Under the pieces are notes generated by a model. That model was given only the letters and a program-made list of their open reading frames with translations. It was not told where the DNA came from and did no database searches. The position numbers and the translations under genes were made by a program. A DNA stretch of 64,000 bases from an uncultured beta proteobacterium (lineage in GTDB: Bacteria > Pseudomonadota > Gammaproteobacteria > Burkholderiales > Burkholderiaceae_C). Location: assembly GCA_903838565.1 (NCBI GenBank), contig CAILZB010000060.1:186001-250000 (forward strand), written 5' to 3'. Numbering within the stretch: position 1 is the stretch's first letter; each line of letters begins with the position of its first letter. Below, one piece after another: positions 22,865 to 30,469 of the stretch.

Positions 22865-25128
22865 AACACCTTGATCAAACTGCCGTGCCAGCGAACGGGC
22901 CCGATCGTCGCGCCTTCCTGCGCCAGACGGCAGTGGGTGGCGGTGGTCTGGTGCTCGGGTTCTACCTGCAGGGCGCGACGGCGCAGAACCTGATCGCCAA
23001 GCCCGCGCGCGCCAGCACGTCTGGCAGCGAATTTCGACCGAACGCCTTCATCACCATTTCGCCCGAGGGCGTGGTCACGCTGGTCTCCAAGCAGCCGGAA
23101 ATTGGCCAGGGCATCAAGACCTCGCTGCCGATGGTGATCGCCGAAGAGCTGGAGGTGGACTGGAAGGACGTGCGCATCGTCCAGGGCGATCTGAACCCGG
23201 CCTACGGTGGCCAGAGCGCGGGGGGCTCCACCTCGACGCCGAACAACTACAACCATTTTCTGCGGCTCGGCGCCACGGCGCGCACGATGCTGGTACAGGC
23301 TGCAGCGCAGACCTGGAACCTGCCGCTGGCCGAATGCGTGGCCGCGAACTCCGCCGTGCACCATCTTCCAAGCAAGCGCAGTCTGAGCTACGGCGCGCTG
23401 GCGGCGAAAGCGGCCACGCTGGACGTGCCGCCCGAGGCCCAGGTCAAACTCAAGGACGCCAAGGACTACAAACTCCTTGGGCAACGCATAGGCGGTGTGG
23501 ACAACCGCGCGATCGTCACGGGAGCGCCGCTGTTCGGCATCGACGTGCGATTGCCTGGCATGCTGTACGCGGTGTACGAGAAATGCCCGGCCTTCGGCGG
23601 CAAAGTCATCAGCGCCAATCTGGCCGCGATCAAGGCGCTGCCCGGCGTGCGCGACGCCTTCGTGATCGAGGGCACGAACAACCTCAACGGGCTCATGCCG
23701 GGCGTGGCGATCGTGGCGGAGTCGACCTGGGCCGCGTTCAGCGCGCGCCGCCAGCTCAAGGTGAACTGGGACGAAGGCAGTGTGGCCAACGAAAGCTGGG
23801 ACGGCTTCGTGGCGCAGGCGCAAGCGCTCTCCAAGAAACAGGGCAGCGTGCCCCTGCGCAAGGACGGCGACCCCGCGGCAGCGTTTGCGACAGCGGCCAA
23901 AACGGTGACTGCGGCCTACAGCTACCCGTTCATTTCGCACGCCAGCATCGAGCCGCAAAACTGCACGGCCTGGTTCAAGGACGGCACGGTAGAAATCTGG
24001 GCGCCGACGCAGAATCCGGCCGCGGGCCAGAACCTGGTGGCCAGCACGCTGGGCCTGGCCAAGGAGAAGATCACGCTGCACATCACGCGCAGCGGCGGCG
24101 GTTTCGGGCGCCGACTGAGCGCCGACTACATCGTCGAAGCCGCCGCCATCGCGCAACGCGTGGCAGCACCCGTCAAGCTCACCTGGTCACGCGAAGACGA
24201 TCTGCGCCACGATCACTACCGCGCCGGCGGCTTCCACTTTTTGCGCGGTGCGCTCGACGCCAAGGGCAGGCTCACGGCCTGGCACAACCACTTTGTCACC
24301 TTTGCCAACCGCGTGCTGCGCGACGGTCAGTCGGTGTTGCAGCCGGGGAGCGGCGCCAGCCTCTCGGGCGACGAGTTTCCAGGCCGTTGGGTTGCCAACT
24401 GCCTGCTGGAGCAGACGCCGATGGAATGCGGCATCCCCATGGGGCCCTGGCGCGCGCCGGGCAGCAATGTGTTTGCCTGGGTGTTCCACAGTTTCATCGA
24501 CGAGATGGCACACGCGGCCGGGCGCGATCCGCTCGAATTTCGGCTGGAGATTCTGGGCAACAAGGATGTCCTGCCCGGCAGCGGCGAGCGCGGCGTGCCC
24601 TACAACGTGGGGCGCATGCGCAACGTATTGAAAGAGGTCGCACTGAAGGCCGAATGGGGTCGCAAGAAGTTACCGCGTGGACAGGGTCAGGGCATTGCCT
24701 TTCATTTCAGCCACCGCGGCTACATCGCCGAGGTCGCCGAAGTCACCGTGTCCAAGGCGGGCGAGCTCAAGGTGGATCGCGTGGTGGTGGTGTCCGACAT
24801 CGGCGCGCAGATCGTCAACCTGAGCGGCGCCGAGAACCAGGTGCATGGTTCGGTCATCGACGGCCTGGGCACGCTGATGTTCGCCGAGCTCGACATCCAG
24901 CGCGGTCGCGTCGTGCAGCGCAACTTCACCGACTACCCGATGCTGGGCATTGCCGACGCGCCGCCGCGCATCGACGTGCACTTTCTCAAGACCAACGAGC
25001 CCGTGACCGGCCTGGGCGAGCCCGCCCTGCCGCCGCTGGCACCGGCCGTGTGCAACGCGATCTTTGCCGCCACCGGCAAACGCGTGCGCCAACTGCCGCT
25101 GAGCCGAGCGGACTTGAGCTGGAGTTGA
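22861..25128 (+). CDS. Molybdopterin-binding large subunit of an isoquinoline 1-oxidoreductase-like hydroxylase
   Basis: Catalytic subunit of 755 residues of the aldehyde oxidase/isoquinoline oxidoreductase beta type. A twin-arginine signal (RR at 16-17, then a hydrophobic stretch to GATAQ) indicates export as a folded complex with the small subunit to the periplasm. The conserved GGFGRR segment binds the cofactor. GLGEPALPP near residue 720 holds the catalytic glutamate. The substrate is an aldehyde or N-heterocycle by family, not readable here. No FAD subunit, cytochrome or XdhC-like maturation gene follows; the next gene is brnA on the other strand. Confidence 0.9.
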
Positions 25129-25217
25129 AGGCGCGCACGAGACGGTTTGCGCTTGTTCTTGATATGACAAATTGGTTGCCATGACTACATCCACCCGCGC
25201 GATGCGGTGAGAAGCCA

Positions 25218-25490
25218 TTACCCGTGACGCGCAGTATTGAGCATGGCATCGCGCAAAATTTCGTTCAGGCGAGTTTGATAGCCGGTGCCTTGAGCCTTGA
25301 GCCACTCCACTACATCGGCATCAATGCGCACGGTCAGCTGCTGCTTGATCGGCCGATAGAACTTCGCACGCACCGCACCATTCCAGTCGCGCGCATTGGT
25401 CGCCGGCAAATCAGAGAAATCGATGTCGCTCTCAGGCTTGGCCGCCAACGCAGCCAATTCCTTACGGACGGATTCAGGCACCTTGCTCAT
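25218..25490 (-). CDS. brnA: BrnA-family antitoxin
   Basis: A 90-residue antitoxin of the BrnT/BrnA type II system. The C-terminal half (QLTVRIDADVVEWLKAQGTGYQTRLNEILRDAM) is the ribbon-helix-helix-like DNA-binding pattern of the family. The N-terminal part, containing DIDFSDLPA, wraps the toxin in homologues. It overlaps the upstream brnT by 17 bases. By family knowledge the complex represses its own promoter; a palindrome sits there. Confidence 0.93.
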   Translation of the reverse strand: MSKVPESVRKELAALAAKPESDIDFSDLPATNARDWNGAVRAKFYRPIKQQLTVRIDADVVEWLKAQGTGYQTRLNEILRDAMLNTARHG

Positions 25491-25758
25491 AAATTTTTCT
25501 CTCCAACTTCGTTGCGCGTCGCGCAGAAATTATCCGTATATGCTCGTTGCCACTCTCGGTTTCATGCCAGGTGTGTGCCACCAGGAGCAAGACGACACCG
25601 CCCACTTGGCCCGAGGTCTGCCAGCGCTGCTCACCGTGTTCGATGCGGTCTTGCCTCGTGATGTGCAACGGGTCATCGAACACCAGCTGGGCTGCTTCGA
25701 AACTCACGCCATGCTTGCGCTGGTTGATTTCGTTTTTGGCATCGTCCCACGAAAACAA
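25474..25758 (-). CDS. brnT: BrnT-family ribonuclease toxin
   Basis: A 94-residue toxin with a RelE-like fold by family. The N-terminal pattern FSWDDAKNEINQRKHGVSFEAAQLVFDDP is diagnostic, and the C-terminal half has IRIISARRATKLERKIYE with the conserved Arg residues. No in-frame ATG lies near the expected start. The initiator is probably TTG at 25758, with AGGGG about 8 bases upstream. Such a weak start could keep toxin levels low relative to BrnA. The next gene, brnA, overlaps it. Confidence 0.92.
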   Translation of the reverse strand: MFSWDDAKNEINQRKHGVSFEAAQLVFDDPLHITRQDRIEHGEQRWQTSGQVGGVVLLLVAHTWHETESGNEHIRIISARRATKLERKIYEQGA

Positions 25759-25769
25759 GTGTAGCCCCT

Positions 25770-25787
25770 GTTATGTAGTTACATAAC
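25770..25787. promoter_or_regulatory. Palindromic operator candidate for brnTA
   Basis: A perfect palindrome GTTATGTA-GT-TACATAAC lies 11 bases upstream of the brnT start codon, next to AT-rich -10-like sequence (TATAGT on the minus strand just beyond it). BrnA-type antitoxins bind inverted repeats at their own promoters, so this is a plausible autoregulatory site. Confidence 0.6.
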
Positions 25788-25852
25788 TATAACCATCGTC
25801 CCTCGCCTGCACGAGCGTTGGCGGCAAGCTGAAGTGTCGGGATGCAACTTTT

Positions 25853-25891
25853 TCCATGAAAATCAAAAAGCTCGTGTATGATTTTCATGGA
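25853..25891. promoter_or_regulatory. Inverted repeat at the start codon of the AAA_14 ATPase gene
   Basis: Perfect 13-base arms TCCATGAAAATCA (25853-25865) and TGATTTTCATGGA (25879-25891) are separated by 13 bases. The right arm ends on the A of the ATG. A TATGAT -10-like hexamer lies at 25877-25882, so a transcript would begin almost at the ATG. There is no Shine-Dalgarno. The repeat would cover the promoter and start codon. Confidence 0.6.
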
Positions 25892-27072
25892 TGATACCGA
25901 GAAACATTGAATCCTCCCTGCGTTCCCGCTTGACCACCGTGGTCCCGGCGGTGGTCTTGCTTGGACCACGCCAAGTGGGCAAAACCACGCTCGCGCGCAA
26001 GGTCGCGGCCGATTGGCCGGGTGGCTCGGTGTACTTGGACATGGAGCGCCCAGCAGACCGCCGACGCTTGGACGATGCCGACGCCTACCTGCGAGGGCAG
26101 CAGGGCAAGCTGGTGGTGATCGACGAGATTCAGCGGGCTCCGGGATTGTTTGAAGTGCTGCGCGGCATCATCGATGACCGACGCGCAGCGGGCGAGCGCT
26201 TCGGTCACTTTCTCTTGCTCGGTTCGGCGGCGCTGGACCTGATGCGCCAATCCTCGGAGACGCTGGCGGGGCGAGTGGCGTATCTGGAAATTGCGCCGGT
26301 GGATGTGTCCGAGGCCAGCGCCACGCATATCGACACCCAAGCACTGTGGCTGCGGGGTGGCTTCCCTGAAAGCTTGCTCGCCAGCAGCGACGGCACCAGC
26401 ATGGACTGGCGGCGAGATTTCATCCGCTCCTACCTGGAGCGCGACGTGCCCATGTTTGCCCCGCGCATGCCCGTGGAAACACTGAGTCGCCTCTGGACCA
26501 TGCTGGCGCACCAGCAGGGCGGATTGTTGAATCAGGCCCGCCTAGGGGCCAGTCTGGGCATCTCCGCACCCACGGTGTTGCGCTACACCGATCTGATGGT
26601 TGACCTGCAACTGGTGCGTCGCCTGGCACCCTGGAGCGGCAACGTGGGAAAGCGTATGGTCAAGGCCCCAAAGGTCTATGTGCGCGACAGCGGCATCTTG
26701 CACGCGCTGCTCAATCTTCAGACCGTGAACGACCTGCTCGGCCATCCCGTGGTGGGACCCAGCTACGAGAGCTTTGCCATCGAAAACCTCATTCAGTGCG
26801 CGGGCGCCAGCCGAAAGCCGTATTTCTATCGCACCCACCAAGGCGCAGAAATCGATCTGCTGCTGGACCGTGGCGGCAAGCCGGAGATGGCGATCGAGGT
26901 CAAACGCTCGTCCGCGCCGACACTGGACAAGGGCTTTGCCCAAGCCTGCGACGACCTGGGCGTGCAGCAGCGCTACGTGGTGTATCCCGGCGACGAGACC
27001 TACTCCGTGCGGCACGGCACGCAGGCCATCGGGTTGCAGGCGCTGGCGCAGCAGTTGCAACAAGATGGTTGA
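25891..27072 (+). CDS. AAA_14/DUF4143 ATPase with C-terminal nuclease-like motif
   Basis: A 393-residue protein of the widespread AAA_14 (N-terminal) plus DUF4143 (C-terminal) type. Walker A GPRQVGKT is at 25-32 and Walker B LVVIDEIQ at 74-81. The sensor-like LLGSAALDLM follows. The C-terminal part has GAEIDLLLDRGGKPEMAIEVK, where D322, E336 and K338 match the PD-(D/E)XK nuclease pattern known in DUF4143. The biological role of the family is not established. It appears to lack a ribosome-binding site and may be read from a leaderless mRNA. It stands between brnTA and the nuclease-helicase gene. Confidence 0.9.
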   Translation: MIPRNIESSLRSRLTTVVPAVVLLGPRQVGKTTLARKVAADWPGGSVYLDMERPADRRRLDDADAYLRGQQGKLVVIDEIQRAPGLFEVLRGIIDDRRAAGERFGHFLLLGSAALDLMRQSSETLAGRVAYLEIAPVDVSEASATHIDTQALWLRGGFPESLLASSDGTSMDWRRDFIRSYLERDVPMFAPRMPVETLSRLWTMLAHQQGGLLNQARLGASLGISAPTVLRYTDLMVDLQLVRRLAPWSGNVGKRMVKAPKVYVRDSGILHALLNLQTVNDLLGHPVVGPSYESFAIENLIQCAGASRKPYFYRTHQGAEIDLLLDRGGKPEMAIEVKRSSAPTLDKGFAQACDDLGVQQRYVVYPGDETYSVRHGTQAIGLQALAQQLQQDG

Positions 27073-27191
27073 ATTTTTCCACGTTACGCCACTTGCGTGA
27101 CTGCGCAACGGGCGTGTATCAAGAGACAAAACCCGTCAACAATTTGTTGGCGCACCGCAAGTACCTACTACCGCCGCTACTTCTCTGGGCG

Positions 27192-29177
27192 TCATATCTG
27201 GGTGAATCCGATTCTCGTCAAGTATCCAAAAGTGGGGTCATAGTATTCCGGGTGGCGCGTGTGATCTGCGGCATCCCCTTCTGGGATGACAATCACCATT
27301 CCCTGCCTGGCACGAGTCATAAGAACTCGGTAAGCGTTCTTCAAATAGGTCTGTCGCTCAGCAAGTTTGATGCGATTCCAGCGCGACCCGACAAATGAAA
27401 AATTCTGCCAGCCTGCATCCGAATATCGAAAATCGGCATCCCATACAAGGCACGCCCAATCAAGCTCAAGTCCTTGTACGTGAAATTCCGTTGCGACGTC
27501 TTCAAGGAAATACGAGGCACGTACATCCTCTTTGCCATCGAGAAACCAATGAACAGGATCGACCGGCGACCGAACGTCGATGGCGTGCGGTTTCAGGCGC
27601 TGTGCCTGCGAAGAGACGACTATCCCATACCGCTCCGTTCCTCGGGCGCGACTTCTCAGCCACTCTTTCGCACGAGAAAGGTCCCTGGTAATGACTATTG
27701 GATAATGGGGGTCGACCATCTTTAGTGTTCGTTGCGCTTCCATTTCATCGCGATCCAAGACCTGTTTAACAAGTGAGGAAACGCGTTCTGCTCGAAACGA
27801 GCGCATTGAAACTCCGAGGTGCAAATCGTCGTTGAACTTGACGTTTGACCGATCAGCCAATGCGCTGAGAACAACTCCAGCGCCATATTCTTCTTCGTGC
27901 AAACGCGAGGAAATATGTATATCCCAATCTGGGAATGAACGCTGTAGTGCTTCGATCCATTCGCGAATTCCCGCCTCGCCGGTGTTGATCTCCCGCCCGC
28001 CGCCAACCAGGCAAATAACCACGGCCCAGTCCTTATGTCGGTCCAGACAGGAAATCAGAAACTCTGGCTCCGACTGACCGAAGTTCGGTCTTTGCTTCTT
28101 GCGCAGCATGAATGCAGCCGTCTGTTCGAGGTTCCACGCTCGCTGAGCCTCGTCAAAAATCGCAACATGTTCCGATGGTGGATTGTGTTGATCAATGAGG
28201 CATTCATCTCGAAAGTGATGGACGTTCTGAATGAGCGCTTTGACTTCACTAAGCGCCACCCCCTTCTTTAGTTTGCGCCCGGCTTCAGCCTCGCGCTCAA
28301 CCCGGTCTCGTGCCAGGGCCTCCCTGAGAATCGCAACCAATGGGCCGTTTCCAGAAAGAAAAACACTGTGAAGGTCACTGTCCTTGTCGCTATGCGTTGT
28401 TGCGACATTCAGCCCTACAAGCGTCTTGCCTGCACCGGGGACGCCCGTAACAAAGCACACTGCTTTTCTCGATGCCCGCCTGGCCGAATCGATCACTTCG
28501 GAAAGCGCTGCTGAGGTCTTTATGAGATTGACCGCGCCAGCATCACTGCGCGAAATGTCGGCGACAGCGTGGCCACCGTACAAGGCCAGTGCAGCTTCAA
28601 TGATGGTTGGCGTAGGACGGTAGCGCCCGGCTTCCCACTCGGCAGAATCGATGATGGGACCGTCGCAAAACGAGAGCACAGCATCTATGACTTCACGAAG
28701 TTGATCGGTCGACGCCTTGATGGGCAGAAGTACGCCGTCATTTTGCAAAGTTGTTCGAACAGTCCAATGTGCGACCTTTGCTCTCGTTGCGATAAGAATT
28801 GGTGCAACCGGCTTATGGTGTGTGGTTTCGTGAAAATTCTTGAGGTCTACCGCGTAGTCAAATACTTGGTCAATCGCGCTTCCCGAGAAGGTAGCTTCTC
28901 CAACCTTGAATTCGATGACGAAGATGACTTGGTCGATCACCAGCAAAACGTCGATCCGCTTTCCGAGGCGCGGAACTCCATACTCAAAATAGACTTTTCC
29001 TCGTCCGCAGTAGGGTTCCAGCGTGACCGAAAGAATTCGGATTTGCTCCAGCCATGCGTCGCGCTGGGTTGCCTCAATCGGGAACGGACTGCCACGAGTG
29101 AGGTTGCCGAGGATCGCGTCAGATGGGCGATGCAAGAAGTCTTCGATCAAGTCAAAGTAGTACGCGCGATCGGTCAT
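27192..29177 (-). CDS. PD-(D/E)XK nuclease fused to a DUF2075 (Schlafen group 3-like) helicase
   Basis: A 661-residue protein. The N-terminal domain has E65, D76, E89-x-K91 (VIEFK) and Q104xxxY108, which fit a RecB/Cas4-like PD-(D/E)XK nuclease. The second part is DUF2075: Walker A GVPGAGKT at 245-252, Walker B FDEAQ at 341-345, a [12 protein letters not shown] segment and the superfamily 1-like [19 protein letters not shown] near residues 620-640. DUF2075 corresponds to the helicase domain of Schlafen group 3 proteins. Its GC content is visibly lower and its codon use differs from the neighbours, which suggests recent transfer. A defence role is possible but not shown. No strong ribosome-binding site precedes the ATG. 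Confidence 0.88.
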
Positions 29178-29231
29178 ATAAACCCGCTAATCGGCAGCGA
29201 TTGATGGTCGGAGGGCGCAGGTGACCGGTAC

Positions 29232-29588
29232 TCACGCCTTCTTCAGGAAGCACGCCTTGAGCATGAAGCTGCCGGCGTCCATCTTGCAGTCCACCTCGTG
29301 GTCGCCGGCATCTTGCGGCAGGCGGATGCTCTTGACCTTGCTGCCTTTCTTGAGCACGGTGGACGAGCCCTTGACCTTCAGATCCTTGATCAGGATGACG
29401 GAGTCGCCGTCGGCCAGCGGGTTGCCGTTGGCGTCGCGCACCACGCCGTCCGAGGTGGCGCCTTCCTCCTCAGCGCTGGGCGCGGTGGCCGGCCACTCGT
29501 AGGCGCAGTCCGGGCAGATGAAGTTGTCGCCGTCGACGTAGGTGTTTTCGAGGCCGCATTGGGGGCAGGGTGTGAGGGTGTGGGTCAT
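29232..29588 (-). CDS. YjdM/PhnA-type zinc-ribbon protein
   Basis: A 118-residue cytoplasmic protein with an N-terminal zinc ribbon (C8, C11, C25, C28) and the C-terminal YjdM domain (DSVILIKDLKVKGSSTVLKKG). The family was once called PhnA, but no phosphonoacetate hydrolase activity is established for this type. The ATG at 29588 is chosen because the family begins right before the ribbon; an ATG at 29606 is in frame. It forms the right border of the low-GC accessory stretch. Confidence 0.9.
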   Translation of the reverse strand: MTHTLTPCPQCGLENTYVDGDNFICPDCAYEWPATAPSAEEEGATSDGVVRDANGNPLADGDSVILIKDLKVKGSSTVLKKGSKVKSIRLPQDAGDHEVDCKMDAGSFMLKACFLKKA

Positions 29589-29662
29589 GCCCCGATTATT
29601 CAGCACTCGCGCCCGAATCCTTGGCCACCTTGATCCATTGGGTGGTTTCGGCGCGGAGTACG

Positions 29663-30469
29663 TCAGCGTGCAGCCGGCGCCACCGTGCCGCGCAGACCCA
29701 CCCGCTGCACCGCCTGCGTCACGCGAGCCTGCGCTTTCATGTCGGCAACAAAGCGCTGCAGCCAGGGCGCGGCCTGTGCCCGCCCCTTGGGCAGTGCGAT
29801 CGCGAAATGCTCCAGGCCCCAGTGCCCGTCGAGCACACGCGCGCCCGGCAGATCGTCGGACATCTCGAACAGTATGGCCTTGTTCGTGGCGAAGGCTTCG
29901 AGCTGGCCCGAAGCCAGCATCGCGATCGCGCTCTTGAGCGTGGGCGTGCGCACCATGAGCGCGTGCTGGAACTCGCCCGCGAGCTCGCGCTCGGTCGAGC
30001 TGCCCTGGCTCACGCCGATGCGTGTGCCCGGACGGTCCACATCGGCCTGCGTTGCGATCGATGAAGCGGCGGGAACCAGATAACCCTTTTCCACCTCCAG
30101 CAGGGTGGATGAGAAATCCATGTCCTGCAGGCGCTCAGGCGTTTCGTTCGTGAACGACGCGTCCACCTGGCCCGACTTCACTGCCGTCAACACATCGGCG
30201 TTCTTCAGGAACACCACCGGCTCGAAAGGAACACCCAGGCGCCGTGCCATCTCTGCGCCCAGATCGAATCCCAGCCCCTTGGCGGTCCCGGAAGCGGGGT
30301 CGCCGATGAGGGACGTGGGGCTGCCCGGATAAAGCCCGACGCGCAACTTGCCGCTGGGCGCCAGCACTTGCGCCATCGAGGACGCAAGCGGCGCACTGGT
30401 GCAGCCGGCCGTCAGCGCTGCCACCAGCGCCATGACCCCGAAGACCAGGGTGGACAATCTTTTCGTCAT
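29663..30469 (-). CDS. Substrate-binding lipoprotein, SBP_bac_3 family
   Basis: A 268-residue periplasmic binding protein with a lipoprotein signal (lipobox LTAGC, Cys23). The family pattern starts at GKLRVGLYPGSPTSLIG, with KGLGFDLGAEMARRLGVPFEPV and SGQVDASFTNETPER matching polar amino acid-type receptors. No ABC permease or ATPase lies nearby, so it is an orphan receptor. It follows the amidohydrolase gene on the same strand by 37 bases and is probably the last gene of that operon. Confidence 0.85.
   Translation of the reverse strand: MTKRLSTLVFGVMALVAALTAGCTSAPLASSMAQVLAPSGKLRVGLYPGSPTSLIGDPASGTAKGLGFDLGAEMARRLGVPFEPVVFLKNADVLTAVKSGQVDASFTNETPERLQDMDFSSTLLEVEKGYLVPAASSIATQADVDRPGTRIGVSQGSSTERELAGEFQHALMVRTPTLKSAIAMLASGQLEAFATNKAILFEMSDDLPGARVLDGHWGLEHFAIALPKGRAQAAPWLQRFVADMKAQARVTQAVQRVGLRGTVAPAAR

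Follow-up and report, generated by a model that had tools for sequence, protein, structure and literature searches.

A PDC-S41 protein that joins a PD-(D/E)XK nuclease to an SF1 helicase as a candidate single-gene defence enzyme in an uncultured beta proteobacterium

What might a single gene that joins a nuclease to a helicase do for the bacterium that carries it? The gene lies in a 64,000-nucleotide stretch of contig CAILZB010000060.1 from an uncultured beta proteobacterium, and this whole stretch is referred to here as the window. It is an open reading frame of 661 codons with an ATG start on the minus strand (27192-29177), and the plus strand across the same interval is interrupted by stops. 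A first-pass annotation, made from the letters and the open reading frames only, had described a low-GC gene for a PD-(D/E)XK nuclease fused to a Schlafen group 3-like helicase, and had proposed a role in defence or DNA repair. The domains and motifs of the protein were placed as follows.

27192..29177, minus strand: PDC-S41 gene, fusion of a PD-(D/E)XK nuclease and an SF1 helicase, 661 aa (ORF, Pfam, PADLOC, AlphaFold)
28623..29177, minus strand: N-terminal PD-(D/E)XK nuclease domain, residues 1-185 (AlphaFold pLDDT 95, PDB fold matches)
28983..28985, minus strand: codon of E65, nuclease motif, invariant (76-protein alignment)
28950..28952, minus strand: codon of D76, nuclease motif, invariant (76-protein alignment)
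28905..28913, minus strand: codons of E89-F-K91, (D/E)xK motif, E and K invariant (76-protein alignment)
28854..28868, minus strand: codons of Q104xxxY108, RecB-family QxxxY motif, Q and Y invariant (76-protein alignment)
27282..28466, minus strand: SLFN-g3 (PF09848) SF1 helicase domain, residues 238-632 (Pfam; UvrD Z 17.3, SLFN11 Z 16.8)
28422..28445, minus strand: Walker A GVPGAGKT, residues 245-252 (sequence, alignment)
28143..28154, minus strand: Walker B or motif II DEAQ, residues 342-345 (sequence, alignment)
27459..27488, minus strand: conserved EFxxQGLExD, residues 564-573, presumably helicase motif V (invariant Q568, G569, L570, E571 and D573)
27294..27338, minus strand: conserved segment, residues 614-628, presumably helicase motif VI (invariant R617, T621, R622 and R624)

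The proposed fusion was borne out by profile matches, residue conservation and predicted structure. Residues 238-632 matched nearly the entire PF09848 model (E 1.5e-82; 278.2 bits against a gathering cut-off of 24), a family for which DUF2075 is the older Pfam name. Residues 1-185 had no Pfam match, the full protein had none in NCBIfam up to E 1, and a search of PHROGs gave chance-level matches only. None of the solved structures was close to the protein in sequence, and PDB sequence matches to a potassium channel and to zeta toxin were discarded as P-loop or chance similarity. An AlphaFold2 model of the whole protein, built on the 76-row alignment described below, had a pLDDT of 88.4 and a pTM of 0.84, and residues 1-185 modelled alone reached a pLDDT of 95 and a pTM of 0.92. 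When compared with the PDB, the nuclease model matched Can2/Cdn1 (Z 8.8), McrC (Z 8.2) and NucS (Z 8.0), and lower in the list EndoMS, Hjc, NucC (Z 6.5), Card1 and Shedu SduA (Z 5.5). The scores reached are moderate; because nearly all listed matches share the PD-(D/E)XK fold and no catalytic residue has been lost, the assignment of the modelled residues 1-185 to this class of nucleases is firm. The model thus has the nuclease fold whose absence from the N-terminus would have spoken against the first-pass annotation. The helicase domain showed an SF1 fold (UvrD Z 17.3, HelD Z 17.1, SLFN11 Z 16.8), of a polarity, SF1A or SF1B, that cannot be told from it. In a Foldseek search with the whole model SLFN11 ranked first and SLFN14 was among the top matches; RecD, Upf1 and Gabija GajB were also listed.

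With a profile built from seven members, at least 202 encoded relatives were found in the bacterial and archaeal genome collection. Eighty loci were kept, and 76 proteins from at least 17 phyla were aligned. All motifs named from the single sequence were in place. The nuclease residues E65, D76, E89, K91, Q104 and Y108 were identical in 76 of 76 proteins, as were K251, T252, D342, E343 and Q345 of the helicase, with A344 present in 75. Since they are identical throughout the alignment, the named active-site residues are not a product of chance. Further invariant helicase residues were G392, E396, R459, Q568, G569, E571, R617, T621, R622 and R624. The core fold together with the D, (D/E)xK and QxxxY residues identifies the nuclease as a RecB-type (QxxxY) PD-(D/E)XK enzyme. 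No conserved cysteines were present around the nuclease domain in the 76 proteins, which sets it apart from the nucleases of Cas4, AddB and Dna2 with their Fe-S cluster cysteines. Internal stops occurred in 3 of the 80 fetched loci, and 2 were truncated. A motor and a nuclease, both with intact active sites, are therefore combined in one chain.

The protein matched the PADLOC family PDC-S41 (PDLC05014) from end to end (residues 4-660 against positions 3-652 of a 657-position profile, E 2.6e-278), and the family is therefore already catalogued. By this sequence match the protein is assigned to PDC-S41, which PADLOC lists as a single-gene 'phage defence candidate'; the entry is a prediction of phage defence. 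In the open-access literature no published functional test or experiment on PDC-S41 was found. Searches there for PDC-S41 by name and for DUF2075 together with phage or defence returned no paper, and the DUF2075 papers were, by title, not on defence.

Four of 59 relatives encode the nuclease-helicase and all four congeners lack it, and the PDC-S41 family extends over at least 17 phyla, one archaeon included. In a tree of 76 rows the window protein grouped with homologues from Rhodoferax and Variovorax (97*), and well-supported branches forced at least six changes of label for Pseudomonadota and at least five for Bacteroidota. Contigs from metagenome-assembled genomes in this tree may be misbinned; the same mixing of phyla was seen in cultured strains, where Samsonia fell among Erythrobacteraceae and Acinetobacter beside Aquirufa. 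Homologues were present in 4 of 72,556 plasmid records, in 1 of 50,697 phage records and at 12 loci in a viral contig collection, and a search of E. coli with the Samsonia homologue as query gave no DNA match. The gene has spread horizontally and in a patchy manner, not uniformly through core genomes as would have told against its first-pass interpretation.

The gene is located in a 4.1 kb stretch, bordered on the left by a xanthine-dehydrogenase-like gene (xdh, to 25128) and on the right by yjdM (29232-29606).

About 25132..29231, no strand: 4.1 kb stretch between xdh and yjdM, absent in congener G003, with other genes in its place in G002 and G004
25218..25758, minus strand: BrnT/BrnA type II toxin-antitoxin pair, no conserved partner of the nuclease-helicase (Pfam)
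25891..27072, plus strand: AAA_14-DUF4143 ATPase, PADLOC PDC-S01 candidate, no conserved partner of the nuclease-helicase (Pfam, PADLOC)

The flanks of this stretch were 86-91% identical across the window and the congeners G002, G003 and G004. The gap between xdh and yjdM measured 87 bp in G003 as against 4.1 kb in the window, and the same site held 2.7 kb of different DNA in G002 and 9.6 kb in G004, such that its content differed in each of the four related genomes. The G004 insert was found nowhere else in the genome of the window. When inspected by eye and not by profile, the inserts of G002 and G004 began with a membrane protein gene, and that of G004 also contained alpha-2-macroglobulin-like and penicillin-binding-protein-like genes. 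In the window, a short segment that follows xdh is similar to the beginning of this membrane gene and seems to be a remnant of it, so that the island may have replaced a gene that the relatives kept. A reading of the site as a pure defence hotspot was unsupported, as the genes found there in G002 and G004 look host-like by eye. Flanking repeats of the transposon type were limited to short, chance-like pairs, no tRNA genes were found in the window, and no promoter-like site was found in 25100-29700. The AAA_14-DUF4143 ATPase matched PDC-S01 with an E of 1.8e-90; it has a host-like GC content and lies on the strand opposite to the nuclease-helicase. The other window genes scanned had no PADLOC match at E 1e-15.

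The base composition and codon use of the gene had been described as unlike those of its surroundings, and this was confirmed by a GC content of 53.1%, compared with 64.3% in yjdM and 63.8% in the AAA_14 gene, and by a third-position GC of 0.55, where the host-like genes used for comparison had 0.75-0.90. Across the 80 loci (L011-L090) homologues were below the surrounding GC in every GC class, by 4.3 points on average, and in the GC-rich loci (n=16) by 6.8 points. The family as a whole leans towards AT, and low GC alone can therefore not date the transfer. As proof of a recent foreign origin it is weakened by this shift below the host in every GC class.

The neighbourhood survey covered 274 proteins, encoded by the two ORFs nearest to each of the 80 homologues on either side. 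In two batches at E 1e-15, 153 and 118 PADLOC families were matched, totals that are not gene counts because several families overlap on one protein. Many of the matches had an E below 1e-60, the best down to 1e-249, and they included DndC, DndD, GajA, GajB, DRT (UG30, Drt4, Drt6), HamC and AbiLi, as well as an HpaII-type restriction enzyme, REase_II and methyltransferases. A control set of 130 proteins located far off on 20 of the same contigs, and chosen differently from the neighbour set, hit 25 families, with no E below 7e-40. On the question of enrichment in defence islands, defence matches were commoner and stronger than in the controls, but most loci had no obvious defence neighbour, and an unmistakable defence system stood among the four nearest genes at about 7 of 80 loci, as estimated from names. 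Ordinary neighbours such as gyrB, AcrB-type pumps and ribonucleotide reductase were common (Pfam). Because several homologues adjoin core genes such as gyrB, the link of the family to defence islands is modest.

Several individual neighbourhoods were distinctive. Directly upstream of the homologue, gyrB was present in L020, L026, L040 and L056, four of the five closest relatives from the Burkholderiales, with a gap of 23-44 bp in L026 and L056; the position downstream of gyrB is a recurrent insertion site in these relatives. A homologue on an Exiguobacterium plasmid is surrounded by genes of type I RM and McrBC systems, and another shares its contig with C5 methyltransferase and Vsr-like nuclease genes (by eye). 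Two plasmids of one Persicobacter strain (L007 and L008) each carry a 655-aa homologue, followed in L008 by IS21 istA/istB-like genes (by eye). In three genome loci a NUDIX hydrolase gene was located less than 2 kb from the homologue, and in L009 such a gene follows it, which may be chance. No partner gene family recurred near the homologues at the 80 loci, with BrnTA present at none and the AAA_14 ATPase at one; the nuclease-helicase is a single gene without a conserved partner.

The defence role is supported by the PDC-S41 match, the sporadic distribution, the bare site in G003, the mixed-phylum tree and the defence matches among the neighbours, all of which are indirect, the literature having yielded no experiment. 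We consider it moderately likely that the nuclease-helicase is an enzyme that works on its own against phages or mobile elements such as plasmids, degrades DNA and spreads horizontally. The SF1 motor would recognise DNA that looks wrong during infection, such as free ends, single-stranded gaps or stalled forks, and would hydrolyse ATP and travel along this aberrant DNA. Its movement would feed or license the fused RecB-type QxxxY PD-(D/E)XK nuclease, which would then cut. We infer this substrate and trigger, and an action on DNA rather than on RNA; the destruction might be confined to the invader or, as in abortive infection, might include the host chromosome. Counting against an antiphage role are the modest association with defence genes, the rarity on plasmids and phages, and the PADLOC candidates PDC-S04 and PDC-M63AB, which were inactive in their native host (PMC12409345). 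The argument that Schlafen-related domains occur in defence, on which the first-pass annotation had drawn, turned out to be weak, because bacterial Schlafens that figure as defence modules in the literature are RNases (PMC12839542) and the Schlafen RNase core is absent here.

The gene could instead encode an accessory enzyme for DNA repair or recombination, of the Dna2, AddAB or RecB type, that has spread horizontally and resects host DNA ends or flaps. A nuclease placed before an SF1 helicase is the order of Dna2, QxxxY is a motif of the RecB family, RecD and UvrD were among the structural matches, and the homologue adjoins gyrB in four of the five nearest relatives. Such a role is nevertheless unlikely in view of the patchy presence (4 of 59 relatives, no congener), the lack of a conserved neighbour gene and the lack of the conserved Fe-S cysteines of the Cas4, AddB and Dna2 nucleases. 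An enzyme directed at RNA, with a motor that detects infection and a nuclease that cleaves tRNA or another RNA in the manner of the Schlafen RNase core, would agree with the membership of the helicase in the Schlafen group 3 family and with SLFN11 and SLFN14 among the top Foldseek matches. We regard it as quite improbable: that RNase core is missing, and in its place stands a PD-(D/E)XK nuclease whose listed fold relatives, judged by entry titles and general knowledge, mostly cut DNA.

Two further readings concern the setting of the gene. That it is acquired cargo, either without a present function in the host or with one that serves a mobile carrier element, would account for an intact gene in so few relatives and for the homologues on two plasmids of one Persicobacter strain; the intact reading frame, the catalytic residues kept in every aligned member and the internal stops in just 3 of 80 fetched loci render this very improbable. 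The least probable reading is a multi-gene system with the adjoining AAA_14-DUF4143 ATPase and BrnTA. In its favour, the same 4.1 kb from xdh to yjdM holds all of these genes, and PADLOC lists the ATPase as a candidate in its own right (PDC-S01). Against it, BrnTA and the ATPase occur at 0 and 1 of 80 homologous loci, and the ATPase is encoded on the other strand, at a host-like GC of 63.8% against 53.1%. An operon with BrnTA and AAA_14 was rejected, as the arrangement is not conserved across the 80 loci. Encoded by one compact gene, the nuclease-helicase is readily testable against phages and plasmids. The PDC-S41 family is widespread, keeps both active sites strictly and has no reported function in the literature searched.

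What is new here is a resemblance between the nuclease domain and the linker of human SLFN14, the PDC-S41 family itself having been catalogued before. The nuclease model matched SLFN14 residues 400-548 with Z 7.1 (3.7 Å over 128 residues, 15% identity), in a list composed almost wholly of PD-(D/E)XK enzymes, and residues 7-637 of the whole model were colinear with SLFN14 398-912. It is conceivable, if rather doubtful, that a bacterial nuclease-helicase like PDC-S41 gave rise to the half of vertebrate group III Schlafens that comprises linker and helicase, in which case the linker would be an inactivated PD-(D/E)XK nuclease to which the RNase core was added. Against this descent, a Z of 7 can also arise from common arrangements, SLFN14 was the only Schlafen among the nuclease-model matches listed, and Pfam and sequence searches gave no sequence-profile support. 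The likeness in the predicted model is a lead, not a finding. The linker domain of subgroups II and III has been described as of unknown function (PMC8789055). If the lead were true, it would explain a domain of human antiviral Schlafens and tie it to a bacterial ancestor.

In comparison with known proteins, Schlafen membership was rejected because a Pfam scan up to E 1 listed no Schlafen RNase core domain. The PF09848 domain of vertebrate group III Schlafens comes after the RNase core and the linker, whereas here it follows a PD-(D/E)XK nuclease, and the helicase module is the only part in common with the group 3 proteins. Human SLFN11 and SLFN14 were top matches of the whole model in Foldseek, but in the window protein the RNase core is absent and the nuclease active site is intact, and the sequence similarity to SLFN11 was very weak (E 0.6, around Walker A only). 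Dna2 has an N-terminal PD-(D/E)XK nuclease and a C-terminal SF1 helicase. The nuclease-helicase has the same domain order but lacks conserved Fe-S cysteines, and its occurrence is sporadic, not universal. The CRISPR ancillary nucleases Can2, Card1 and Cdn1, together with McrC, NucS and NucC, share the PD-(D/E)XK fold with the nuclease domain; they have other partner domains or subunits and not a helicase in the same chain.

Among nuclease and helicase defence systems, Nhi is likewise a single standalone gene that encodes both activities. Membership in Nhi was rejected, as the PADLOC model matched only 31 P-loop residues (E 1.8e-4), and on this sequence comparison Nhi is no homologue beyond the generic ATPase motif; AbiO was rejected on P-loop matches alone (PADLOC). 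Gabija (GajAB) and Hachiman (HamAB) follow the same nuclease and helicase logic of reading the state of DNA, but are two-gene systems. The PADLOC profiles of GajA with GajB and of HamA with HamB had no match to the protein or to the window genes scanned; GajB is structurally similar to the helicase domain (Foldseek). By analogy, Nhi, Hachiman, Gabija and Shedu may serve as precedents for the proposed logic: Nhi, a nuclease-helicase encoded by one gene, has been linked to phage SSB, the Hachiman helicase senses ssDNA ends and frees its nuclease, Gabija responds to RecBCD inhibition and to DNA ends, and the PD-(D/E)XK domain of Shedu acts on DNA ends (PMC12904381; PMC12278908).
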